22,881 nucleotides of DNA from a virus: positions 1 to 22,881 of the IMG/VR virus record IMGVR_UViG_3300032213_002482; one strand, 5' to 3'. Position numbers and translations under genes: made by a program. A model generated the notes under the pieces. That model ran no database searches and was not told the DNA's origin. It saw only the letters and a list, made by a program, of their open reading frames with translations. Within the stretch, counting starts at the first letter, position 1. Every line of letters begins with the position of its first letter. Shown here one piece after another: positions 1 through 22,377 of this stretch.

Positions 1-425
1 ACATTAATACTTAATTCTGTTGCATCAATTCCACGTGGAATAGTACGGCCTTTTTTATCACCAATTGTTGCATATTTATCTACATTTGGAACAAAATCTT
101 TTGCACGTACATAATCATCTCCTTTAGTAGAAGCCGCCATGGCATAACGTCCCGTTGCATCTTGTGGTAATGCAAATAGATATTCATACGCAGCCATGAT
201 TGGAGAATTAAATTCTGTAGGTTGTATTTCAACATTTGGATTATCATTTAAGATATCAAACATTTCTATAGTTTTATCTCTAGTAATGCCATCTCGTTCT
301 TTAGGTCCGATTAAAAGTATTACTCGTTCTACATTCGGATCTTGTGCATATCGATTTGCTAAATCTAAATGTGCTCCTGTCAATGGTTTAAATCCTCCGG
401 GAAATAAGACTGTTATTTTATTCAT
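1..425 (-). CDS. Nucleotidyltransferase (cytidylyltransferase-like fold), 3' end cut by window edge
   Basis: Reading from the ATG at 425 to the window edge gives 141 residues with no stop. The N-terminus is a hydrophobic strand (ITVLFPGGF) followed by KPLTGAHLDLA. This matches the strand-loop-helix of the HxGH/TxxH nucleotidyltransferase superfamily, with T16 and H19 as the nucleotide-binding pair. Family members transfer a nucleotidyl group to small phosphorylated substrates (NMN, glycerol-phosphate, phosphopantetheine). The substrate cannot be told here because the C-terminal part, including any ISSTxxR-like motif, is outside the window. The gene lies 24 bases after the tail-fibre-like gene, with the repeated AT-rich junction element and an A-rich leader (AAAAGAAAA) before its start. 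Related enzymes are annotated in other marine T4-like phages. The family call is good; the specific reaction is unknown. Confidence 0.75.
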   Translation of the reverse strand, partial: MNKITVLFPGGFKPLTGAHLDLANRYAQDPNVERVILLIGPKERDGITRDKTIEMFDILNDNPNVEIQPTEFNSPIMAAYEYLFALPQDATGRYAMAASTKGDDYVRAKDFVPNVDKYATIGDKKGRTIPRGIDATELSIN

Positions 426-3148: not shown

Positions 3149-3162
3149 TTTTATATAAATAT
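3149..3162. promoter_or_regulatory. Repeated AT-rich junction element, copy b
   Basis: The plus strand reads ttttatataaatat and includes TATAAATA at 3154-3161. Along the genes, ATATTTATATAAAA begins in the TGA stop of the SbcDC-like gene and ends 14 bases before the ATG of the tail-fibre-like gene. An AAAAAAGAA ribosome-binding-like stretch follows directly. Confidence 0.5.
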
Positions 3163-6100
3163 CAACTGTGCTGAATCTGGCTAAATCCGTTTATCTTGTT
3201 TACTTCTATTAAATTATCAACCATATCTCGCATAGAATCTACATGAGATATAATTACTGAGAAATCAAATTTTGTTCTAAAATAATCAAATAAATTAACT
3301 ACTGCAGAAATATGTTCTGCATCCAAACTTCCCCAACCTTCATCAATTGCAATAAAATTAGGACGTGGTAACGCTGAAACATTGATCAATGCTATTCGAA
3401 TTGCCAACGATGAAATAAATCGCTCCATACCACTTGTTAATTCTAATGGCCAAAAGTTATCTTCATCGTATATGATATAACCATTAATATTTTTTCCATC
3501 ACTTTGAAGAACCATATTAAAATCTACTACCTGATTCAATACGTTATTTATTTCAGTTTCAATTTTTGGCATTGCCTTTGAAATTAATTCATATGGAATT
3601 CCATCACGTTTTACGGTTTGCAAATAATATTCAAATGCTTTATATTCTGTTTCCAATTGTTGATATGAATCCAATTGTGTCATGGCAGCTGCTTTATTTG
3701 TTTTTGCTACTTCAATTGCACCAAACAATGATTTAATTGTTTCTTGCGTAGATTTTATTTTAGTTGAACATGATTCGATACTTTCTTTACATGTTGCAAT
3801 ATGTAAATCTACAGTCTGATTATGAATTATTGCCGTTGCATTTTTTCGAAATGATTCTTGACGTTCTAAACATGTTTCTAGTTCCGATTCTCTTGTTTGT
3901 AAATCACTTTCTAATAATTCTAATTTTAATTCTTTTACATTTAAAGAATTTTGGCTTTCTGTTATTGAATCTTGTATTTTAGTTAATTCTTTATACTGAG
4001 TTTCATAAATCTGTAAAGCGTCTATAGAATTTTTGTTAGTCTCATATCGATTAATCAATTCATTTAATATGTTTCGATCTTGATCAATTGTAGTTTGTGC
4101 CTCAATTGCATCTTGTACGAAAACGTTAGATGTACAGTATTTGCAGTTTGGATCATATTCATGAGATTCAAGATGTTTAATTTTTTCTTCTTTTGCATCG
4201 ATAATTCCTTTTTGATTTTTAATTTCATCACGCAATTCTGTAAATTCTAATCGTAATTGGTTCAATGTATCTACGTGATGTTGTAATTGAGTTTCATTAT
4301 AATTTGTTCGTATATTTTTCTTTGCTTGTGCGATATTTGTTTTTATAAGTTGTATTCCTGCGTATGCAGTATCAATATCCGATAATATAGATTCTATAGT
4401 TTTTGTTAATTCAGTTTCTTGTTGTTCTAATGCATTAATATCCGGACCATCATATGTAGTAGGTAATTTTGTTTCAATTAAAGCAACAATTTTTTCTTGC
4501 AAGGTATTCCTTGTTTCCTGCAATTCATTTTCATGTTGTTCTAATTCTAATATAGTATCTTGATTGTTTAATATAATAGAATCATTATGAACAATAATTT
4601 CAGCAAAATCCGTTTTCTTATATTCTTTTAGTTTTCCGGCAGTTTCTTTGATTTCATCAGATGCTAATTGATATAACTGTTCAAACACCGTAATATCTAA
4701 AAACTGTGAAAGTAAATCTTTACGTTCTCGTTGAGACTTTTCAATGAAATTATTATTATCAGCTTGAAGTGAGAATGCAGTTAAAATAAAATCATCATAT
4801 GTACCTAAATATCTACGTATTGATTTATTTGTATCACTGCGTTCTTCACCATTTAAATTTTCTGTATCAGTATAAAAATCTACTAATACTTTAACGTGAC
4901 CATTTTTTTGTTTGATACCAGTACGTTCAATTGTATATGTAGTACCATTCATTTCAAATGTAAACTTACCTCGGAATGTAACTTTTTTATTATTTAAAAC
5001 TTCATGAGCTTTTCCGGTTTTACTACATTTATCAAAAATAGTATATGTTATTGCATCTAATAAAGAAGACTTACCTGATGTATTTGCAGCAAATAAACCA
5101 CATACATCTTGCATATTTTCAAAATTTATAACATTGCCTTCCACATATGAAAACATGTTATCAAATTCAAATTGAATAGGATGCCATGTCATGTGTCTGA
5201 CAGATTCTACTGCAGGTAATTTTGAATTTATTGTTCGATTGATATGTCGAATTGCATCAGTTTCTTCTGCAGTAGCTTGAGGAAAATTTAATGCAATATA
5301 ATCTGTAATGAGAGTGTTTTGATATTCTACATCCCGTACATTTCCAATTGCAAATGATGATGAAGCTTCGTTATTAATATTAGTAACACTTCGTTGTATG
5401 GTTATATCTTGAACATTAAATTTTTTGCGTATTGATGCAATTAATTTTTTCATATCCGCAGCGGACGTGTCATTAAATTTGATACGCACGCGAGGTTTAT
5501 TTGGAATACGATGTGGATATTTAATTACTTTTGTACCTTCAACTTCAATTGTAATATAACCATAATCATTTTGAATTTCAACAAAATCAGCTGATTTATT
5601 TTCAATATCCCATACTAAGATACCATGATCCAATGCTTCACCATGATTTTGTTGAATAAGTGATCCTGGATAAGCAACGGTTTTTAATTCATTTAAAAAT
5701 TGTGCCGGTTTATGTATATCACCTAATAATGTAATATCATGTCCATCAAATAAATCAACACCTACATTTTCATTTGATATTTGATATCCAATATCTGTTT
5801 TTGCACTATTAACCGCTCCATGATGCAATGCAATTTTATATGTAGCATCAAATTGATCGGCACGTATATATTCGGATGGCGCTATATCAACAGCCATATG
5901 ATTCCATGTAATACCACCTAATTCAAATAATCCGTTTTCTTTTATAAAAATTATATTAGGATTTTGTATAACATCTAATACGGGACTTACAGCATCAATT
6001 CGATGCATATTATTTAAGTTCATGTCATGGTTACCTAAAATAACAATTGTAGGTATTTCAAATCCATTAAAAAAATCAACAAGCATTTGAACTAGCTCCG

Positions 6101-6305
6101 GAGACATATCTAATTTGCTATGTACAATATCACCTGTAACAACTGCAATACTAGCTCCAGTACTGGTTCGAGCAATATAATTAAACATGTTTTCAAACAC
6201 TTCACGATATTCTCGATGTCGTTTTAATGTACGAATATGTATATCTGAAATATGATATATTTTGTCAATTTTATCAATGCCGACATCAATCTTTTTTATG
6301 TCCAT
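3162..6305 (-). CDS. Fused SbcD-SbcC (gp47-gp46-like) recombination nuclease/ATPase
   Basis: One 1047-residue chain carries both subunits of an Mre11-Rad50-type complex. Residues 1-260 are a calcineurin-like phosphoesterase: D21xH23, GD59, GNH93D, HHG (161-163) and GDIH198. Residues 375-520 begin the ATPase with a P-loop at 406-414 (AANTSGKSS). Residues about 520-930 are predicted coiled coil, interrupted at C721-KY-C724 by a zinc-hook CxxC. The C-terminal lobe has an ABC signature (LTSGMERF, from 956), Walker B (IAIDE, D988-E989), GSLD as D-loop and H1021 as H-loop. In T4, gp47 and gp46 are separate proteins that resect DNA ends for recombination-dependent replication; the same job is expected here. 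The gene starts inside the primase gene (10-base overlap), with GGGAATGTT before its ATG, so the two are probably translationally coupled. Confidence 0.92.
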   Translation of the reverse strand: MDIKKIDVGIDKIDKIYHISDIHIRTLKRHREYREVFENMFNYIARTSTGASIAVVTGDIVHSKLDMSPELVQMLVDFFNGFEIPTIVILGNHDMNLNNMHRIDAVSPVLDVIQNPNIIFIKENGLFELGGITWNHMAVDIAPSEYIRADQFDATYKIALHHGAVNSAKTDIGYQISNENVGVDLFDGHDITLLGDIHKPAQFLNELKTVAYPGSLIQQNHGEALDHGILVWDIENKSADFVEIQNDYGYITIEVEGTKVIKYPHRIPNKPRVRIKFNDTSAADMKKLIASIRKKFNVQDITIQRSVTNINNEASSSFAIGNVRDVEYQNTLITDYIALNFPQATAEETDAIRHINRTINSKLPAVESVRHMTWHPIQFEFDNMFSYVEGNVINFENMQDVCGLFAANTSGKSSLLDAITYTIFDKCSKTGKAHEVLNNKKVTFRGKFTFEMNGTTYTIERTGIKQKNGHVKVLVDFYTDTENLNGEERSDTNKSIRRYLGTYDDFILTAFSLQADNNNFIEKSQRERKDLLSQFLDITVFEQLYQLASDEIKETAGKLKEYKKTDFAEIIVHNDSIILNNQDTILELEQHENELQETRNTLQEKIVALIETKLPTTYDGPDINALEQQETELTKTIESILSDIDTAYAGIQLIKTNIAQAKKNIRTNYNETQLQHHVDTLNQLRLEFTELRDEIKNQKGIIDAKEEKIKHLESHEYDPNCKYCTSNVFVQDAIEAQTTIDQDRNILNELINRYETNKNSIDALQIYETQYKELTKIQDSITESQNSLNVKELKLELLESDLQTRESELETCLERQESFRKNATAIIHNQTVDLHIATCKESIESCSTKIKSTQETIKSLFGAIEVAKTNKAAAMTQLDSYQQLETEYKAFEYYLQTVKRDGIPYELISKAMPKIETEINNVLNQVVDFNMVLQSDGKNINGYIIYDEDNFWPLELTSGMERFISSLAIRIALINVSALPRPNFIAIDEGWGSLDAEHISAVVNLFDYFRTKFDFSVIISHVDSMRDMVDNLIEVNKINGFSQIQHS

Positions 6306-7243
6306 AACATTCCCATCTTTAAATGCATTAAACCTTCGAATGATAATACGTCGGTATCTGCTAATATAGTTGTAATTTGATTGAATCCTAATTCAGAAGG
6401 ATCTTTATCTTGCAATTCAACAAAATATACATTTAATCCTTCTGCCATAAATCTTTCTGCAATTTGAATTGCATTCTTTAATGCATCGGCATCTAAACAA
6501 AGATAAATGTTTCGTACTCGTTCTTCAATAATTTTCTTTTGTAATGCTGGTTGTATTACTTTACCAAATAATGGTATTGCATTTCTTTTTACTGCAATTG
6601 CATCGAAAGCCCCTTCACATAATATTATTGGTTCAGCCCAATTTATAAACATTTCAAATCCGATAATATCTTTTGAAACTTTAGGATTTTTATGCTTTTG
6701 TGAATCTGCTTTATAAAATGCTCTACTAACAAAGTAATTTAATTGGCCAGTTGCATCATAACTAGGTATAATTATTTTACCGGCATATTCGCCCGATTCG
6801 CAATATCCTATACGATATTTAATAATATCAAATATATTAATTCCTCTATTTTTAAGATAAAAGATTGCATTTTTATAATCAGGTGTAGTTTTCTTAAACC
6901 ATAATGGTTTATATTCATCCGGCAATTGTAGTGTTACCTGTTTTTTTATATCAGTTAAATTAACCGTACGGTATTTTGATGTTTCAATTATTTTATTTAG
7001 CTGTTCAAACTTTTCTTTTGATAAATTTAATTGTTTGAATAATGAAGATATAGTTCGGCCTTTTTTATCAGATATCCAACAATGCCAAACGTTTTCACCA
7101 TTGCTATTAGTATTAATATTAATTTCTAATTTAGGTTTATAATGTGAAATGAATGGAGAGAAGAATGCAATATTATCACCGGAAGTAGATTTTCCTTTAC
7201 CTAGTACTGATTCTAATAATTGCAATAACTTAATATTCTTCAT
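6296..7243 (-). CDS. DNA primase (DnaG/gp61-like, TOPRIM) with degraded zinc site
   Basis: From the ATG at 7243 the product has 315 residues. The frame stays open upstream to a TTG at 7279, but that would add a hydrophobic stretch without a ribosome site, so I prefer the ATG. Residues 140-280 are the catalytic core: a segment like the DnaG N-terminal subdomain (YLKNRGI, then YAGKIIIPSYD), then TOPRIM motifs E210-G-A-F-D and D251-A-D253, which bind metals for RNA primer synthesis. The N-terminal 70 residues align in pattern with the DnaG zinc ribbon, but only C55 (WHCW) remains; the other expected ligands appear as S29, I32 and S58. At about 315 residues it is close to T4 gp61 (342) and lacks a helicase domain. 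The following SbcDC-like gene overlaps its end. Primase activity is expected to need a helicase partner outside this window. Confidence 0.85.
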   Translation of the reverse strand: MKNIKLLQLLESVLGKGKSTSGDNIAFFSPFISHYKPKLEININTNSNGENVWHCWISDKKGRTISSLFKQLNLSKEKFEQLNKIIETSKYRTVNLTDIKKQVTLQLPDEYKPLWFKKTTPDYKNAIFYLKNRGINIFDIIKYRIGYCESGEYAGKIIIPSYDATGQLNYFVSRAFYKADSQKHKNPKVSKDIIGFEMFINWAEPIILCEGAFDAIAVKRNAIPLFGKVIQPALQKKIIEERVRNIYLCLDADALKNAIQIAERFMAEGLNVYFVELQDKDPSELGFNQITTILADTDVLSFEGLMHLKMGMLWT

Positions 7244-7309
7244 TAATAATAATATAATTAAACTATAGTAGTATTCCAATTAATTATTAATAATAATATA
7301 ATAATATTA

Positions 7310-7431: not shown

Positions 7432-7914
7432 TTATGAAAAAAATTTCTTAACATTTACTACTTCTTCGCCGGTTTTTAAACATTCTAACATCCATTCTGC
7501 AGGAATATCTTTTTTAGCAACATGTTTAATACCTAATTTTACAGCATACGCTTCATATGTAGTTTTACTGCCTTTTGATATTTTTTGCGTAGGAGATTGA
7601 AATACCATGCGAATATCTATTCCAGGATTCGATGCTAAAACATGTTTCATTTTTAAACGATCGGCACTAGTCCAACGTCCTTTTGTTTCAATAAACATGA
7701 ATTCGCCATTTTTCTTCGTAAATACAAAATCTGGAGTATATTTTGCTTTACGTTCTGGTACTATATAATTTAGTGTTTCAGTTTCATATTTCAAAGGATA
7801 TTCTGTAGATTTAATCTGTTCTGCAACAGTATGTTCTAATCCAGATTTATATCCATATTTAAGAGCAGCTGCTCGTTTTGAATTACCTGATGAATGATAA
7901 TGATTTTTTGCCAT
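7432..7914 (-). CDS. T7-type endonuclease I, Holliday-junction resolvase
   Basis: The product has 160 residues; T7 gp3 has 149. The catalytic set of the family is in place: E27 in KSGLEHT, D62 in YTPDF, and E76-x-K78 in FIETKGRW. The spacing between E27 and D62 is 35 residues, the same as E20-D55 in T7 endonuclease I. The enzyme is a PD-(D/E)XK nuclease that cleaves four-way junctions and branched DNA as a dimer, clearing recombination intermediates before packaging. The N-terminus is basic (SSGNSKRAAALKYGYK), as expected for DNA contact. It lies between the 605-residue virion-type protein and the structured leader of the primase gene. T4 itself uses the unrelated endonuclease VII. The start is supported by an A-rich leader (AAAAAAGTT) before the ATG. 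Confidence 0.88.
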   Translation of the reverse strand: MAKNHYHSSGNSKRAAALKYGYKSGLEHTVAEQIKSTEYPLKYETETLNYIVPERKAKYTPDFVFTKKNGEFMFIETKGRWTSADRLKMKHVLASNPGIDIRMVFQSPTQKISKGSKTTYEAYAVKLGIKHVAKKDIPAEWMLECLKTGEEVVNVKKFFS

Positions 7915-7933: not shown

Positions 7934-9751
7934 TTACATGTAATCCCAACGCAATTTTAATTTTTGTTGATGCCATTCAGTATCACCCGTATTAATGTAA
8001 TAATATGTAACATTAACATGTCCGGAATGTCCTGTTCTAATTAATTCATTTGCAATATGTTTAACAGTCCATCTAATATTTTTAACATTTGTTTGTATAT
8101 ATGTGGATTTAGATTTTGATAATCTAGTTAACGTAGTACCCCATGCATCATTAAACGCTTTTATAAACCAATCTGCAGCTCCATTTTCATCATCATTAAC
8201 CCAACCTTTAAATCCCATTTTACCAAAATAATTTTCTGGAGAATTTTGAATTACTTTAAAAAGATCATCCCAAATTTTATCCATTTCATCTGATTCTTTA
8301 ATAGTTTGTTGATTTATTCCGTTCAATTTTGGTTTGTCTGCATAAGATTTCCATGCTGTGAACTGTTTACTCCAATCGCTTAATGATGCTGGTGTTTTTA
8401 TCGTTATATAACCGGAAGTATCACTAGGTATTCTAAACGCAGCCATTTTAGCAGCCTCATGGGTAAGATGTCCATAAACACCATCTTGTTTCGGAAAAGC
8501 AATACCATTCGTTTCTCCTTGTGCTGCATTTATTCCATTAATGAATATCTGCATTGCTTTTACTTCTTGACCTTTATCTCCTTGTTTAATTGGAGTTTTA
8601 TAATCCAATTTATCCCAAGCAGTACCAATTGGATGAAAAGTTCCAGTAGCAGTCGATGTTTTTGTAGTTTTAGTTTTGTTAGTAGTAGATGATGATTTTG
8701 ATGATGTTGATGTAACAGCTTTGTCGATATCTGCAGATATTTCAAATTGTTCATATATAAATTTATCTGCATAGTATGAATTTCTAGATTCAGTAATACC
8801 AGCACCTTTACCAGCATCTAATATAGCTTGAAGTACTTCAGTAGTAATATTATCATTTGTCGTAGAAAGGCCTTTCCATGTTTTAATTGCATCAATAAAA
8901 TTCTTAGTACGAGTTCCATAAGTACCATATTGCGGTTTAGCATCTCTAAATGCAACCCAAGAAGCTACATCATTTTTTTCAGCTAATTTTGGAGAAGCCA
9001 TTCCAATTCTATACATTAAATCTTGAATATATAAAACATCATCTGATGATGTATTTAATTTAATTGGAGCATCTTTAAGTTTAGTTAATAATGCTTGTGC
9101 TTTATTTTCTGTAGTAGATGCAGTAGCTGCTACATCTGAAGTTGCAGTTTGATCAGCCGATAATGTATATTGTGATTGTGCTTCTGGTTCTGATTTAGCG
9201 TCCAATGCTTGTTGCAATTTAGCATTTTCTGCTTCTAATTTTTTAAGTCTTTCCGTATTTAAATACGGAGCAATATCTGTTTTTAATTTATCTAATTCTG
9301 GTTGCAACATTACAGATGCATTTCCTATACTATATTTAGTTACTAATAAATCATTAACAGCTGTAATTTTTGTGTCATCTGTTATATCTGTTCCTAATAC
9401 CATTTCAAAGATATACGTTCTAGGAACAATCATAACGTTAAATTTAGTTTTACGTTGTGAATCTTTAAAATCATCACTAAATACATAAACAAAGCCTTCA
9501 AATTCTTCTTCTACTGCTAATGTTTGTGCCCAAATACTGTTTTCTCCAAAACGATCATCTAATTTTAATAAATTTATTATACTATCCATAGATGGTGTTT
9601 CGCCTAAAACATCTGTAGATTTAAGAATAAATGCAGCACCTCTCGGTTTCGTACTACGTACTATATCTAACATAGATTTAGGTGCAGGTGTTTGTATAGT
9701 AAATGATTTTAAATTACCTTGTTCTACCAATAAGTTTTTTAATTTTAACAT
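7934..9751 (-). CDS. Protein with two peptidoglycan-binding-like modules and possible head-targeting N-terminus
   Basis: The product has 605 residues. It starts MLKLKNLLVEQ, which resembles the short propeptide of T4 head-internal proteins and offers an L-x-E site after residue 10. Residues about 165-190 are a short coiled coil. Residues about 235-310 and about 380-440 each look like a peptidoglycan-binding module: an IKQGDKGQEVKAMQ-type helix, then a DGVYGHLTHEAAK turn in the second copy and QYGTYGTRTKNF in the first. A Ser/Thr/Lys-rich linker (residues about 345-375) separates them. The C-terminal 120 residues are unrecognised and rich in Trp, Lys and Tyr. No lysozyme, amidase or peptidase motif is visible. 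It could be a cell-wall-contacting virion or injection protein. An AAAGGA site precedes the start; the gene follows the kinase-like gene and a junction element. Domain calls are by pattern only. Confidence 0.5.
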   Translation of the reverse strand: MLKLKNLLVEQGNLKSFTIQTPAPKSMLDIVRSTKPRGAAFILKSTDVLGETPSMDSIINLLKLDDRFGENSIWAQTLAVEEEFEGFVYVFSDDFKDSQRKTKFNVMIVPRTYIFEMVLGTDITDDTKITAVNDLLVTKYSIGNASVMLQPELDKLKTDIAPYLNTERLKKLEAENAKLQQALDAKSEPEAQSQYTLSADQTATSDVAATASTTENKAQALLTKLKDAPIKLNTSSDDVLYIQDLMYRIGMASPKLAEKNDVASWVAFRDAKPQYGTYGTRTKNFIDAIKTWKGLSTTNDNITTEVLQAILDAGKGAGITESRNSYYADKFIYEQFEISADIDKAVTSTSSKSSSTTNKTKTTKTSTATGTFHPIGTAWDKLDYKTPIKQGDKGQEVKAMQIFINGINAAQGETNGIAFPKQDGVYGHLTHEAAKMAAFRIPSDTSGYITIKTPASLSDWSKQFTAWKSYADKPKLNGINQQTIKESDEMDKIWDDLFKVIQNSPENYFGKMGFKGWVNDDENGAADWFIKAFNDAWGTTLTRLSKSKSTYIQTNVKNIRWTVKHIANELIRTGHSGHVNVTYYYINTGDTEWHQQKLKLRWDYM

Positions 9752-9762
9752 TCTAAAAATCC

Positions 9763-9780
9763 TTTATATAATATAAATAT
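9763..9780. promoter_or_regulatory. Repeated AT-rich junction element, copy c (4-base insertion)
   Basis: The plus strand reads tttatataatataaatat, with TATAAATA at 9772-9779. Along the genes, ATATTTATATTATATAAA begins within the TGA stop of the kinase-like gene and runs into the AAAGGA ribosome-binding site. It ends 11 bases before the ATG at 9751. Confidence 0.5.
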
Positions 9781-10316
9781 CACCAATCAACTAATACTAA
9801 GTTTCCATTCCAAATCATTAAATTATCCGATCGAAAATCTAAATCTAAGTCAAATTCTGGAATATTAAGTTTATCTACATCTACTTGCAATGCATTAAGA
9901 AAATTATTCAATTGTTTGTTTGTAATTTCAGTTTCTTGTACGAAATCAAATATAGAAACTTCGCCTCCATTTTTTCTAGCAAAGTCAGAAAAATTATTCA
10001 TGAATAAATCAATTTCACGACGAATTGTTTGCGGCAATGTATCAGCATTTGCCATTATATACATATCAGTTCCATTTACATAATAAATTGGAATAAATGT
10101 AGTAAATTCAGAGTAACGATTAACTATGCGATCTGCAACTTGATATTCATCTCGTTCTTTAGTAATTTTAAAAACTTTGTCTTCGCCGTCAATTTCATAT
10201 ACACGGCCGTTATCACCTTGCCCTAAAAATTTAAACTGTTTATTCTTTATTTTACCAAGTAAACGTTGTAATTCAACATCATTCATTTCACGAAGTAATG
10301 TTTTAAGTCGTATCAT
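9780..10316 (-). CDS. Minimal protein-kinase-like protein
   Basis: The product has 178 residues. Residues 30-52 form a kinase N-lobe start: G32-x-G34-x-x-G37-x-V39 as the glycine-rich loop and K50 (VFKIT) as the candidate ATP-anchoring lysine. Near the C-terminus, D160-FRSD-N165 fits the catalytic loop (Asp, five on, Asn), with DLD replacing HRD, and D177 in LVLVDW fits the DFG aspartate. The chain ends one residue later, so it lacks the activation segment and the rest of the C-lobe; at 178 residues it is much shorter than usual kinases. It begins MIRLKTLLREM, close to the start of the next gene's product. A good AAAGGAATAAC site precedes the ATG, one base after the stop of the LamG-type gene, so co-translation with a virion gene is likely. 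Activity and substrate are unknown; it may be a small-molecule or pseudo-kinase. Confidence 0.62.
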   Translation of the reverse strand: MIRLKTLLREMNDVELQRLLGKIKNKQFKFLGQGDNGRVYEIDGEDKVFKITKERDEYQVADRIVNRYSEFTTFIPIYYVNGTDMYIMANADTLPQTIRREIDLFMNNFSDFARKNGGEVSIFDFVQETEITNKQLNNFLNALQVDVDKLNIPEFDLDLDFRSDNLMIWNGNLVLVDW

Positions 10317-10317
10317 G

Positions 10318-11889
10318 TTATTCCTTTAACGAAATATTTTTATCTAAATCGATGCGTATTAAAAAATTCATATCAACATCATTTCGTTTTTTTATAGGTT
10401 GTGCTAATTTACCAATAGCTAATAATTGTCCAGCATCATTATATAATCCAACTGTAGTTATATATGGGGCAAAATCACTACCACTAACAAATGGATGATA
10501 TGTAACATCATTATCTTGTGTCAATGTAATATTAGTTGACATATTAAAATCACCAGCGTCTAATTTAGCAACAACGCCTAATTCATTAATCGTTACGGTG
10601 CTTTTATATGATATACTAATAAAATCATTAATAAGATTATTATATCGATAATCTGGAGTAGATATAACTGCAATACCTTGCTTTGTAAAAATATTACCTA
10701 CATGATTTGTTTGTAATAATTTGCCATCTAACAGATTTCTAGTTGATAAACTTGTTATTTCCGTAGAAGACAATGCTCGATTAAAAATACGTATTTCATC
10801 TAATAATCCATAAAAATTAGCTGATTGCGTATTAAATCCGCCTATGTACATAGGATCTGTATTATCAATTCTAGCAGATGCAGTAAATGGAGAAAATGTG
10901 TTAGATAATAAAACACTAGAACCCGATTGTTGCAATGTTCCATTAATATACAATTGCAAATAACTTCCAGATTTTTGACATAAAACATGTTTCCAATCGC
11001 CTGACAATACAGACGATGTAACATATGTTTTAAATGTAGTACTACCGGCTACTGAAAAAACAATTTGATTACTACCACTTAATTCTATTTTAAATGGATA
11101 TTGCGGCGATATACTACTCGATGCTTTTGTTAAAATTAGTTGATTGTTCGATGTAGCTAAACTATTAGATATAAAAAATGAAATTGCATAATTCTCATCT
11201 CGATTATACATACCATTAATATCAGTTGATATAAAACCAGAACCAGAAAAATACGCTGATAAGCCGACAGGCAAACCTAAATCATCTAAATCGGTAATAC
11301 CTGGATTATATGTAACATTTTCACTTATATATTTAATTCTGCTAGTATCAAAATATTCATTAAATCCTTCATAAAATATTTCACCGGTTACTAAAGAACT
11401 AGTATCGATACTTGAATTAAGTATATTACCATAACGGTCTGATGAAATATTAAATGAATTATGTTTTATTGCAAAAGATTCCGGTTGTATTGCTTCACCC
11501 ATTTTTAATTGCGGTATTGAAAACACTGATGCAGATTCATATAAATATTTTTTTGTACGAACTAAATTTGTTGGACCGTACGTATTAGTTGGCTGATCTT
11601 TATATTTGTAATATAAATGATTAATTGAATAATATATAATAGTTTGTAAACTACCATCTATATTCGATGCATCATTATATGTTAATTCAGATCCTAACGG
11701 AGGAAGTATATCAGTATAAATTGCAGTTAATGGTAAACAACTACTAGTTGCACTGCCGGAATCTACAACCCATTGTTTATGGGCTTGAAACGGACTTATC
11801 ATTACATCTGCAGCATCTATTTTTTTAAAAACAGATGGATATAATCCTTCGTACGTATCTTGTATATTATTTAATTTAGAATCAGCCAT
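10318..11889 (-). CDS. LamG-domain virion structural protein
   Basis: The product has 523 residues. Residues about 230-380 look like a LamG/concanavalin-type beta sandwich: YAISFFISNSL, GDWKHVLCQKSGSYLQLYIN, and FYGLLDEIRIFNRALSSTEI near the end, which is the classical last strand. Such domains bind sugars or proteins in many phage tails. The last 45 residues (YITTVGLYNDAGQLLAIGKL, then AQP) repeat the C-terminal module of the upstream 439-residue protein, with detectable DNA similarity. The gene stands directly behind a strong terminator whose U-tract ends 7 bases before this ATG, so its transcription probably depends on read-through or a local start. No clear Shine-Dalgarno site precedes it. 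Likely a tail or baseplate-attached protein; the precise role is unknown. Confidence 0.65.
   Translation of the reverse strand: MADSKLNNIQDTYEGLYPSVFKKIDAADVMISPFQAHKQWVVDSGSATSSCLPLTAIYTDILPPLGSELTYNDASNIDGSLQTIIYYSINHLYYKYKDQPTNTYGPTNLVRTKKYLYESASVFSIPQLKMGEAIQPESFAIKHNSFNISSDRYGNILNSSIDTSSLVTGEIFYEGFNEYFDTSRIKYISENVTYNPGITDLDDLGLPVGLSAYFSGSGFISTDINGMYNRDENYAISFFISNSLATSNNQLILTKASSSISPQYPFKIELSGSNQIVFSVAGSTTFKTYVTSSVLSGDWKHVLCQKSGSYLQLYINGTLQQSGSSVLLSNTFSPFTASARIDNTDPMYIGGFNTQSANFYGLLDEIRIFNRALSSTEITSLSTRNLLDGKLLQTNHVGNIFTKQGIAVISTPDYRYNNLINDFISISYKSTVTINELGVVAKLDAGDFNMSTNITLTQDNDVTYHPFVSGSDFAPYITTVGLYNDAGQLLAIGKLAQPIKKRNDVDMNFLIRIDLDKNISLKE
10410..10466. repeat. DNA repeat shared with 12021-12077, copy 1
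   Basis: This 57-base stretch differs from 12021-12077 at 9 positions by hand alignment and includes 24 identical bases (10435-10458 and 12046-12069). It encodes the VGLYND-x3-LLA-x2-KL core of the shared C-terminal module. Confidence 0.7.
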
Positions 11890-19543: not shown

Positions 19544-21424
19544 TTAATATGTTACTACACGCCCTTTGATATCAGTATTTGGAAACTTAACTTCAAATAT
19601 ACTAGGATCTAATGACGGATAAATAACACCATTTTTTGTTGCAGAAATTAAATCATAAACATTACCTGAATATCCTTGGGATGATTCATATAAATTACTA
19701 AAATTAACTCGTATAACTGATTGTACACCTTTTACATTAGCAATAATAGTATTAACATCTGATTTTATAATTGGTTGATTGATTTGCCAACGATCAATAT
19801 CAAAATGTTGTTTTACTGTGTTAATACATTTAAGTAATACTTCGTTACTATTATAATTTGATAATACAGATATTTCAAATTGAAGTCCTATATTAATTAT
19901 ATAAGCATCTTTAATATTAACTGCATCAGTTAACATTCTATAATAATTTAAGTATGTTTTTAAATTTTCTTTGATTGCATTATTCAATTCAACTAATTGC
20001 TTAGATTGATTATATCCCAATACATACATATTCATTGCAAACGGATTTGGTAATCTAGATTCTTGATAATCTTGTTGAGATATTTGATCGTCTGGAACAA
20101 TATATGCTTTAGCTACACTACCAAATTTTGATGGCATAGAATAAGCACGTATTATATAATCTTCTCTAGTTACTAAACGATTCTGTGTAGCAAAATTTGC
20201 TAATGCATTATTTTTTATATCTTGCAACGTGTCTGCAGTTTTTGCACCAGCTGCCGGAATTGAATTATTAACTGCAACTGTAGTTTTAACAAAATTCATC
20301 ATAGGCGTACTTGAAGTTGAATTAACATCTTCATCATATTCAATATAATTTATTCCTGTTAATACATTTGCTGATACATTATCAGTTAACCCATTTCCTA
20401 TTGTATAAACTACCGTTAACGTTGTATTAGACGGAGCTTGTCCATATGTTCTAGTATATAAAAAATTTGATGGATCAATATCAACATCAACATCTCTTCT
20501 AAATCCAGCAAGTCCATTTCCTACATTATCTGGATTAGGAATAATTTCTTCATCGTTGTTATCTGATATTCCAGCTCCGAATTGTACTTCTAATTTATTG
20601 TCACTCCGCAAACGAGTAATAAAACGTTTTGCAGTTTTTTTCATTTTTAATAAACTAGGAGATTCAGAACGATACGGAGATAAATCCGGATCATTTTCTG
20701 CTAAATTAGGTACTGCTTCAAAAATAGTATCTTGTGCTAAGTATGGAACTTCATACCAACTATCACCATCTGTTTCCGTTATAGAAATTATTTCAATAAT
20801 ATTTGTTTCTGGTAAAACTACTTTATCATATGCAATCGGAGTTCCAAAATTAAATGTGGCTGTCTTAACATCTCCTGATACTGCTTTTACTTGTTTCTTT
20901 AATAAGTAATATGTTGGTTGTTTTGTAGTAGGATTGCTTTCATATATCGTAACTTCAGTAGTACTAAATGAAGATGAGAATCTAAAATCTACAGAATCCA
21001 ATGTTCTAAAAACAGCTGACCCATCTTTTTGTTTTACTCGCATTCCCGGTTTAATTGAAAGTGCATAATTATAATCTGGCTGTACAGCTGTTCCGGATCC
21101 TATAGAAGGTACAAGTTGAAATACATCTAATGTTACATGTGCTGGAATTGAATTTTTAGCATTATATCCTAATGCACGAGCTAAATCATATATATTACCT
21201 CGCTCTGATGCTTGTTCTAATAAAGATTCTCTTAAATTAATATCAGTGTAATATGATAATACATCTCCAACATATGATGCTAATTCAATGAACAACATAC
21301 CAGGAGATGATTCATTAAAATCAGTATATGAATTAGGAAAATACTGTTTTGTAAAATCAATTAAATTTCGTTTGAATTGTCCGAAATCTTTATTAATATA
21401 AGATACTTCTTTTTTAGTTTCCAT
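19544..21424 (-). CDS. Baseplate wedge protein gp6-like (baseplate J family)
   Basis: The product has 626 residues; T4 gp6 has 660. The N-terminal 110 residues are diagnostic: FTKQYFPNSYTDFNESSPGM followed by LFIELASYVGDVLSYYTDIN, then ASERGNIYDLARALGYN. This is the conserved start of gp6-type wedge proteins, whose dimers form the inner ring of the baseplate. The middle holds the J-like region (KTADTLQDIKNNALANFATQ, then NRLVTREDYIIRA). Residues about 500-626 contain INIGLQFEISVLSNYN and a terminal IKGRVV segment. It stands directly after the gp25-like gene, matching the pairing of these partners in contractile-tail clusters. The ATG is preceded by TAGGAAATAC, a good ribosome site that overlaps the gp25 stop. 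It acts in the assembled tail. Confidence 0.88.
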   Translation of the reverse strand: METKKEVSYINKDFGQFKRNLIDFTKQYFPNSYTDFNESSPGMLFIELASYVGDVLSYYTDINLRESLLEQASERGNIYDLARALGYNAKNSIPAHVTLDVFQLVPSIGSGTAVQPDYNYALSIKPGMRVKQKDGSAVFRTLDSVDFRFSSSFSTTEVTIYESNPTTKQPTYYLLKKQVKAVSGDVKTATFNFGTPIAYDKVVLPETNIIEIISITETDGDSWYEVPYLAQDTIFEAVPNLAENDPDLSPYRSESPSLLKMKKTAKRFITRLRSDNKLEVQFGAGISDNNDEEIIPNPDNVGNGLAGFRRDVDVDIDPSNFLYTRTYGQAPSNTTLTVVYTIGNGLTDNVSANVLTGINYIEYDEDVNSTSSTPMMNFVKTTVAVNNSIPAAGAKTADTLQDIKNNALANFATQNRLVTREDYIIRAYSMPSKFGSVAKAYIVPDDQISQQDYQESRLPNPFAMNMYVLGYNQSKQLVELNNAIKENLKTYLNYYRMLTDAVNIKDAYIINIGLQFEISVLSNYNSNEVLLKCINTVKQHFDIDRWQINQPIIKSDVNTIIANVKGVQSVIRVNFSNLYESSQGYSGNVYDLISATKNGVIYPSLDPSIFEVKFPNTDIKGRVVTY

Positions 21425-21431
21425 GTATTTC

Positions 21432-21872
21432 CTATGTAATTGTCATCTGTCCAGTTTCGTTTGCATTAATAACGATTGAAGAAACCTTTTCAGTAACTGC
21501 AGAAAAATTTATAGTAACTCGTATATCATGATCCAAAGTCGGATCATCTTGAGCAGTTAAAACATCAATTTGTTCTAATGTTACTTCTGGCATCCATCGA
21601 TTAACTGATACCGATATAATATCAATAATATCTGATTTTAATTCTTCAACATTCGGCTGAAAAATTATATTTAATAAATTAGTGCCGTATGCTGGATTAT
21701 CATAACGTTCGCCAATTCTAGTTAATAATAAATTCTTTAAATTATTTAATGCTTGTTGATCAGTTGAATAAACAGGAACAAATACTCCCGGACCGTTAAA
21801 ATTAATTTCAACGCCTAATGCTGTATTGTCAACAGCCGAATTAGTTTGTACCGGTTGTATTTTATATCCCAT
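21432..21872 (-). CDS. Baseplate wedge protein gp25-like
   Basis: The product has 146 residues; T4 gp25 has 132. The family core is clear at residues about 41-75: ALNNLKNLLLTRIGERYDNP, then AYGTNLLNIIFQPN. This is the G-E-R-x3-P-x-Y-G-x3-L-x2-I-F pattern of the GPW/gp25 family. A helical segment follows (VEELKSDIIDIISVSVNRWM) and then strands with IRVTINFSAV. gp25 ties the wedge to the sheath-initiating core in contractile tails. No lysozyme-type catalytic residues can be assigned. The ATG sits 4 bases after the stop of the helical 166-residue gene, and the gp6-like gene follows after 7 bases. The ribosome site is only A-rich (AAAAAGAAA). Confidence 0.88.
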   Translation of the reverse strand: MGYKIQPVQTNSAVDNTALGVEINFNGPGVFVPVYSTDQQALNNLKNLLLTRIGERYDNPAYGTNLLNIIFQPNVEELKSDIIDIISVSVNRWMPEVTLEQIDVLTAQDDPTLDHDIRVTINFSAVTEKVSSIVINANETGQMTIT

Positions 21873-21876
21873 TTCA

Positions 21877-22377
21877 TTATTTCTTTTTATTTATTGCTTT
21901 CATTAAAGCAGAATAATCTCTTGTCAATGCTTGTTGTACTTCGGGTGCAACTTCATATACTTTTCCATCTTCTGGATCTTCCATTATTGCTGGAGCGGCT
22001 GGTTCTAATCCCATAGCAGCTTTCATATTATTTCGCATCATCCCAAAACCTTGAGCATCATTTGATGTCATACGAATTTCATCCATACCTTCTTGCATCA
22101 TCTCTTTAAAACTATTCATAGCCAATGGTGCTTGTTCCATTAATGGATCCGTTTCATTTAATACCGATGCCCATTTATTTTCTGCAAATTGCACTTTAGG
22201 GTTTCTTTTTGGAGCTGTCTGTGGATTTCGATGATCAGGTATCTTAGATGATTTTACTGGCGTCTTCATCTCTGTAATAGTAGATTGTAATCCTTCTCGA
22301 AGAATTTCTGTTAATTCTTCTTTTATAACCTCACGTACGGCTACTTTAAGCGCTTTTATAAGTGTTTTTGAGTCCAT
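21877..22377 (-). CDS. Small helical protein of unknown function, upstream of gp25
   Basis: The product has 166 residues. Residues 1-40 form a strong amphipathic helix (LIKALKVAVREVIKEELTEI). A basic, proline-rich stretch follows (VKSSKIPDHRNPQTAPKRNP) with the segment VQFAENKWASVLNET. Residues 75-120 are rich in methionine (about one in six). The C-terminus VQQALTRDYSALMKAINKKK is again helical and basic. There are no cysteines, signal peptide or membrane segment. Composition resembles scaffold or chaperone-type proteins, but I do not recognise the family. The gene has its own junction element, 8 bases before the ATG, and nearly touches the gp25-like gene, so a role in baseplate assembly is possible. 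Confidence 0.55.
   Translation of the reverse strand: MDSKTLIKALKVAVREVIKEELTEILREGLQSTITEMKTPVKSSKIPDHRNPQTAPKRNPKVQFAENKWASVLNETDPLMEQAPLAMNSFKEMMQEGMDEIRMTSNDAQGFGMMRNNMKAAMGLEPAAPAIMEDPEDGKVYEVAPEVQQALTRDYSALMKAINKKK

Follow-up and report, generated by a model that had tools for sequence, protein, structure and literature searches.

A conserved N-terminal tag, likely a T4-type capsid targeting sequence, on two adjacent proteins of a phage from IMG/VR

In an uncultured T4-like phage, two adjacent genes encode proteins that begin with the same kind of ten-residue tag, MIRLKTLLRE on a 178-aa kinase-like protein and MLKLKNLLVE on a 605-aa protein. This shared N-terminus is likely a T4-type capsid targeting sequence (CTS) carried by cargo. 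Sequence comparison demonstrates the tag, the conservation of particular positions in it, the need for a glutamate and the variable gene slot in which it recurs.

Genomic setting

The window (the whole stretch of DNA analysed, 22,881 nucleotides) is the complete IMG/VR virus record IMGVR_UViG_3300032213_002482 of 22.9 kb, and represents a fragment of a phage genome. The minus strand carries nearly all of its long ORFs, among them baseplate/tail-type genes and genes for a primase, a T7-type endonuclease I and a fused SbcD-SbcC (gp47-gp46-like) protein. In the ORF list, the gene of the kinase-like protein occupies positions 9780-10316 and that of the 605-aa protein positions 7934-9751, both on the minus strand. 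Upstream, the kinase gene is bordered by the gene of a laminin-G-domain tail or baseplate-region protein (10318..11889, minus strand; PF13385, E=1.4e-18), a conserved neighbour that precedes it in relatives too. A near-identical relative of the window, IMGVR_UViG_3300034198_009209 (hereafter G006; 33.7 kb), reaches into the head module and carries terminase, portal, gp21-type protease, scaffold and capsid protein genes; the protease was assigned by Pfam, and the others by gene order and resemblance.

The SbcD-SbcC protein is encoded by a single ORF of 1047 aa (3162-6305, minus strand) that joins SbcD-like (gp47) and SbcC-like (gp46) parts; T4 encodes the two separately. A single ORF of similar length is also present in relatives and in the cultured Microcystis phage Mel-JY01.

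Conservation of the tag

The initial sequence-only reading claimed that the two genes share an N-terminal segment, that the DNA of the two segments differs and that the rest of the proteins is unrelated. These claims held, with letters and positions as originally given. The tags lie at 10287..10316 (kinase-like protein) and 9722..9751 (605-aa protein) on the minus strand, with predicted gp21-type cuts between E10 and M11 and between E10 and Q11, respectively. An AAGGA-like ribosome site precedes the ATG of both genes, and these sites together with 32 aligned relatives (below) support the assigned starts, so that the tag lies at the extreme N-terminus. Six of the ten residues are identical, 12 of the 30 bases differ, and the Leu codons at positions 4 and 8 are not the same in the two tags. 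We infer from these base and codon differences that the resemblance likely reflects selection at the protein level and not recently copied DNA. The bodies that follow (9780..10286 and 7934..9721, minus strand) fall into different families when proteins are clustered by BLAST without their first 15 residues.

Relatives of the 178-aa protein are encoded by 148 stretches, 80 of which were retrieved, and 32 members were aligned. I2, L4, K5, L8 and E10 are invariant in this alignment and L7 is nearly so; residue 9 and residues 11-17 are variable. When all proteins were clustered after trimming of the first 15 residues, a stricter form of the tag was present in 12 of 157 family representatives, versus two of 750 internal Met positions (p=3e-8). 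Within G006, only these two proteins match the pattern among 28 ORFs. The likeness between the two tags is thus real and far beyond chance.

Distribution of the tag in IMG/VR

We scanned IMG/VR with a DNA pattern for MIx[LF]Kx[LF][LF]xE and, as a control, with a version carrying Lys in place of Glu 10 (K10). The matches of both scans are samples rather than total counts. Of 122 distinct E10 matches, 94 coincided with the first ATG of an ORF, dozens of unrelated proteins being involved; of 82 K10 matches only 6 did so (p=8e-25), and 74 lay outside any ORF. An E9 scan was dropped as a negative control because LLE also fits LxE (68 of 101 matches at ORF starts). Peptidase_S77, the gp21 family, occurs in 21 of 34 contigs with the tag and in 2 of 29 control contigs (p=4e-6; contigs mostly of 20 kb or more), an association that may in part reflect the fact that both are traits of T4-like phages.

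Among 65 tagged proteins from the scan are zeta-toxin/P-loop kinase-like proteins, poly(A) polymerases or tRNA nucleotidyltransferases, HD proteins, HAD-type phosphatases, lysozymes and HEAT-repeat proteins. Occurrence of the tag on clearly non-virion proteins would have argued against a role in head targeting. Such cases were rare: the clearest is one UvsY-like protein among the 65, probably a native N-terminus that fits the pattern by accident. The primase of the window (6296-7279; MKNIKLLQLLESVLGKG) was another candidate for a tagged protein outside the virion, but it was set aside, as its helix is a conserved part of primases of other phages and does not have the LLxE form.

Several other N-termini deserve mention as separate observations. 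One contig (L123) carries three paralogues in a row (523, 444 and at least 351 aa), all with MI[RS]FK[QR]FLLE tags. In Mel-JY01 (60276-62718), three nearby paralogues have a MIKLxSLxxE tag followed by ISDRVWHLT..SA..IL, a segment that by eye recalls ADP-ribosyltransferase-like starts. Flavobacterium phage immuto shows recurrent N-termini on unrelated proteins (ENFDLKKFLVENKLT, KKQILSEQFRRMQ..AGIITES and KKSQLRxIIKE), which could represent further tag classes. In the window itself, a 166-aa protein (21877-22377, minus strand) starts with MDSKTLIKALKVAVREVIKEELTEILREG, an amphipathic N-terminus ending in ILRE/G (slashes mark cut sites, known or predicted) that is conserved in relatives and resembles MKLDLLKKLIKEAVKEAVREELTVILSED of immuto; it is conceivably a longer tag.

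A variable slot downstream of the kinase gene

The kinase and endonuclease genes flank a slot that holds one or two proteins, which differ among phages. Its conserved downstream border is the Phage endonuclease I gene (T7 gp3-like; 7432..7914, minus strand; PF05367, E=4.5e-33). The 605-aa protein (BLAST family f7) is the slot protein of the window. Slot proteins have N-termini of three kinds: MIxLKxLLxE, (L)EQIIRxxLLE and a short form such as MKKLFEQ or MKINEQ. With slot families picked by position and not by tag, and with the kinase left out of the count, [LIF]xE was present within 20 residues in 71 of 73 distinct slot N-termini, versus 107 of 427 elsewhere in the same contigs (p=3e-34); the background in internal 20-mers is 15%. 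One of the two exceptions resembles a truncated ORF and the other a spurious one. The distance to the Glu ranges from 4 to 20 residues; we infer from this variation in length that the constant element is hydrophobic-x-Glu, as in a protease site. Q is the commonest P1' residue among slot proteins.

The existence of the variable slot is established by sequence, and it favours the sequence-only reading. The slot is likely a cargo bay with interchangeable tags, packaging of its products being inferred. Outside the slot, two relatives (G003, L097 1-17500; G001, L094, record positions 72956-73805) carry a second cluster of tagged or NILAENxxRFGxKNL-type proteins, mostly of unknown function.

Comparison with T4 and other known systems

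The sequence-only reading likened the shared segment to the propeptide of T4 internal head proteins, and this is supported. A register-10 regular expression (hydrophobic residues at 4, 7 and 8; E10) matched three of 245 T4 ORFs, namely IPII, IPIII and gp24, each a substrate of gp21 (PMC5694885). Mutants of T4 IPIII have shown that targeting depends mainly on residues 4 and 7 and processing on residues 8 and 10 (PMC9026906, citing Mullaney and Black 1996); the same four positions are fixed in the kinase family. CTS-like sequences have also been noted on other proteins of T2 and T6 (PMC9026906).

Like the CTS of IPI, IPII and IPIII, the tag comprises ten N-terminal residues with hydrophobic residues at 4, 7 and 8 and Glu at 10, sits before unrelated bodies and occurs in a phage group that has a gp21-type protease. 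It differs in being Leu/Lys-rich (MIxLKxLLxE here, MKTYQEFIAE in T4), in the presence of tags of other lengths (4-20) in the same slot, in P1' residues (M or Q here, A or S at the T4 sites compared) and in its larger, enzyme-like predicted cargo, the packaging of which is inferred. Closest in letters is T4 gp24 (MAKINELLRE/S), whose LLRE at 7-10 is identical to that of the kinase tag and whose N-terminal propeptide is also removed by gp21; however, gp24 is a shell protein, and the pair in the window is predicted to be internal cargo. T4 Alt, a packaged and injected ADP-ribosyltransferase, offers a precedent for a head-borne enzyme with a short gp21-cleaved N-terminus (MELITELFDE), but it belongs to a different enzyme class and is also cut at its C-terminus. 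Head propeptides of SPN3US and phiKZ share a short motif ending in Glu, a gp21-related protease and ejection proteins, but several of them are 100 residues or more in length and have AxE or SxE-type motifs.

An independent link between a tag and virions comes from cyanophage S-SM1. Sullivan et al. 2010 detected the cytidylyltransferase T4-GC190 in purified S-SM1 virions by mass spectrometry (PMC3037559), and we find that its gene (SSM1_190) starts with MKKFSAFLNE/A. Examination of 185 S-SM1 ORFs (about 150 of 174 kb) with the register-10 expression gave only two matches, T4-GC190 and the baseplate hub gp5. Like the two proteins of the window, T4-GC190 has a register-10 tag; it is an enzyme and is found in virions, but it belongs to a cyanophage and its body is unrelated to theirs. 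These data, obtained by others, favour the sequence-only reading. The tag is absent from the P-HM2 protein filed in the same gene cluster, and the N-terminus of T4-GC190 goes unmentioned in the passages of PMC3037559 consulted. A nucleotidylyltransferase-like protein with PGGFKPLTGAH, a motif similar to that of the S-SM1 virion cytidylyltransferase, is encoded in the window (3-425, minus strand) and in G006 (19816-22314, L090) without an N-terminal tag; tagged forms with a PGGFKPLTGAH-like motif occur in some IMG/VR contigs (L257, L321).

The protease and its sites

The sequence-only reading pointed to L-x-E at residues 8-10 of both proteins as a possible cut site of the gp21 type. This is supported by sequence; cleavage itself is inferred. 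The gp21-type protease is not encoded in the window, which is a fragment, but Peptidase_S77 is present in G006 (E about 1e-34) and, with G006 included, in 8 of 15 contigs of the clade. The major capsid protein of G006 has a site of the same kind, QLVKE/A, and across the clade and two cultured phages the capsid sites QLVKE/A, QIVSE/A or QLISE/A align with the T4 gp23 cut FLTE/A. Scaffolds of most relatives begin with DLLKE/A, the T4 gp22 counterpart being QLIAE/A; one relative has LLKQ, with Q replacing E at the N-terminal site. The protease gene and the matching sites in relatives are therefore demonstrated at the sequence level.

The head-module proteins of 282, 234, 133 and 158 aa encoded around gp21 in G006 (28033-31366; L089/L090) nearly all have [LIF]xE in their first 20 residues, for example KKLYRDFFGLNE/Q. 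These small proteins are likely core proteins.

Nature of the cargo

The 178-aa protein has a GxGDNGRVY loop, K50, E57, D160xxxxN165 and D177-W178 at its C-terminus. The Gly-rich loop, K50, D160, N165 and D177 are invariant in the 32 aligned relatives, with K50 in the place of a catalytic Lys and a kinase-like spacing of the DxxxxN motif and second Asp, and the N-to-D spacing equals that of E. coli ThiK (sequences compared by reading). A resemblance to small kinases is possible, but it rests on motifs only, without profile support, and kinase activity is unproven. No protein-kinase match was found in Pfam, a PDB profile search gave only weak and mixed matches, and hhalign against SrkA, ThiK and YniA did no better than controls. 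The Pfam PrlF_antitoxin matches and the best PDB matches, to S100-A9, obtained in the search for a kinase fold were below the cut-off, with unlike bodies, and were judged to be chance. No relative of the protein was detected in the bacterial genomes searched, and tblastn of both proteins against annotated phages returned nothing.

For the 605-aa protein no significant domain match was obtained; other members of family f7 include an M15/extensin-like peptidase (sub-threshold matches). Among the slot and tagged proteins is a PG_binding_1 protein, and one tagged protein combines SGNH/DltD-like, PG_binding and Phage_lysozyme2 domains.

Alternative explanations

The rival that survives best, an unlikely one, is that the proteins are targeted to the head and processed but remain there or aid assembly as core proteins, and are not injected effectors. 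In its favour, core proteins of the head module of the same phages also have an N-terminal [LIF]xE, and gp21 degrades the T4 core proteins gp22, gp67 and gp68 (PMC5694885). Against it, the cargo is modular, variable and enzyme-like (kinase-like, lysozyme, nucleotidyltransferase, zeta-toxin-like), unlike a conserved scaffold, and CTS cargo of T4 reaches the cell (PMC9026906).

Much less probable still is that the tag is a docking helix for the tail tube, hub or baseplate and that the proteins are tail-borne, for example peptidoglycan hydrolases acting at entry. The slot does adjoin baseplate genes, phage tail-lysozyme-like (PF18013) and M15-like domains occur among the tagged proteins, and the S-SM1 hub gp5 fits the regular expression. 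However, only [LIF]xE, the gp21 cut site, is constant across tags of 4-20 residues, with dependence on Glu, and the same grammar is found on T4 internal proteins and gp24 but not on T4 tail proteins. Assembly of the T4 tail proceeds without gp21, which further disfavours tail docking.

A convergent native amphipathic first helix with no targeting role is very unlikely: similar native N-termini do exist (the primase LLQLLESVLGKG helix, UvsY), but the strong Glu dependence at one position across unrelated proteins, the enrichment at a single gene slot and the variable residues between fixed ones speak against it.

Proposed mechanism and its implications

We thus favour capsid targeting as the likely explanation. 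Counting against it are the untagged P-HM2 protein, the matches to a UvsY-like protein and to S-SM1 gp5, the Q in the scaffold of one relative, and the M or Q at P1'. By analogy with T4, residues 1-10, with hydrophobic residues at 4, 7 and 8 and Glu 10, would dock the new protein on the prohead scaffolding core; a gp21-type protease would cut after Glu 10 and leave the mature protein free inside the head, and DNA would then be packaged around it. At infection, the kinase-like and 605-aa proteins would exit the head alongside the DNA and be active before phage genes are expressed. Different phages would load different proteins behind interchangeable tags from the cargo bay after the kinase gene. 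Sequence data back a role of the tag in targeting and cleavage. For these two proteins, cleavage, packaging and injection are extrapolated from T4 and S-SM1; their targeting and the function of the cargo as enzymes are likewise inferences. The original suggestion that both proteins are packaged and injected with the DNA accordingly remains an inference; no virion proteome exists for this clade.

The mechanism is already known from T4. Three things appear to be new: a hypervariable cargo slot whose tags are interchangeable and of several lengths, cargo predicted to be kinase-like or wall-cutting, and how widely enzymes of aquatic phages bear the tag. The open-access literature searched yielded no paper that connects capsid targeting with metagenomic phages, an absence that is weak evidence. 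A bolder reading, towards which the balance tips only slightly, makes the tag a general, sequence-readable address label by which aquatic T4-like phages, whether of Bacteroidetes, cyanobacteria or other hosts, mark proteins for injection. Their swappable bay would hold kinase-like, zeta-toxin-like and nucleotidyltransferase cargo as well as HAD, HD and peptidoglycan-cutting proteins. If so, many unannotated head-packaged effectors could be listed from genomes alone.

Only in very few phages have the head-carried, injected proteins been identified, since this requires virion proteomics of cultured isolates. If the tag does direct proteins to the head, it would tie an unexplained published observation, the enzyme in S-SM1 virions, to a targeting signal and would provide a sequence rule for injected effectors in uncultured T4-like phages, testable by existing T4 packaging assays. 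Kinase-like and wall-cutting proteins may then act in the first moments of infection.
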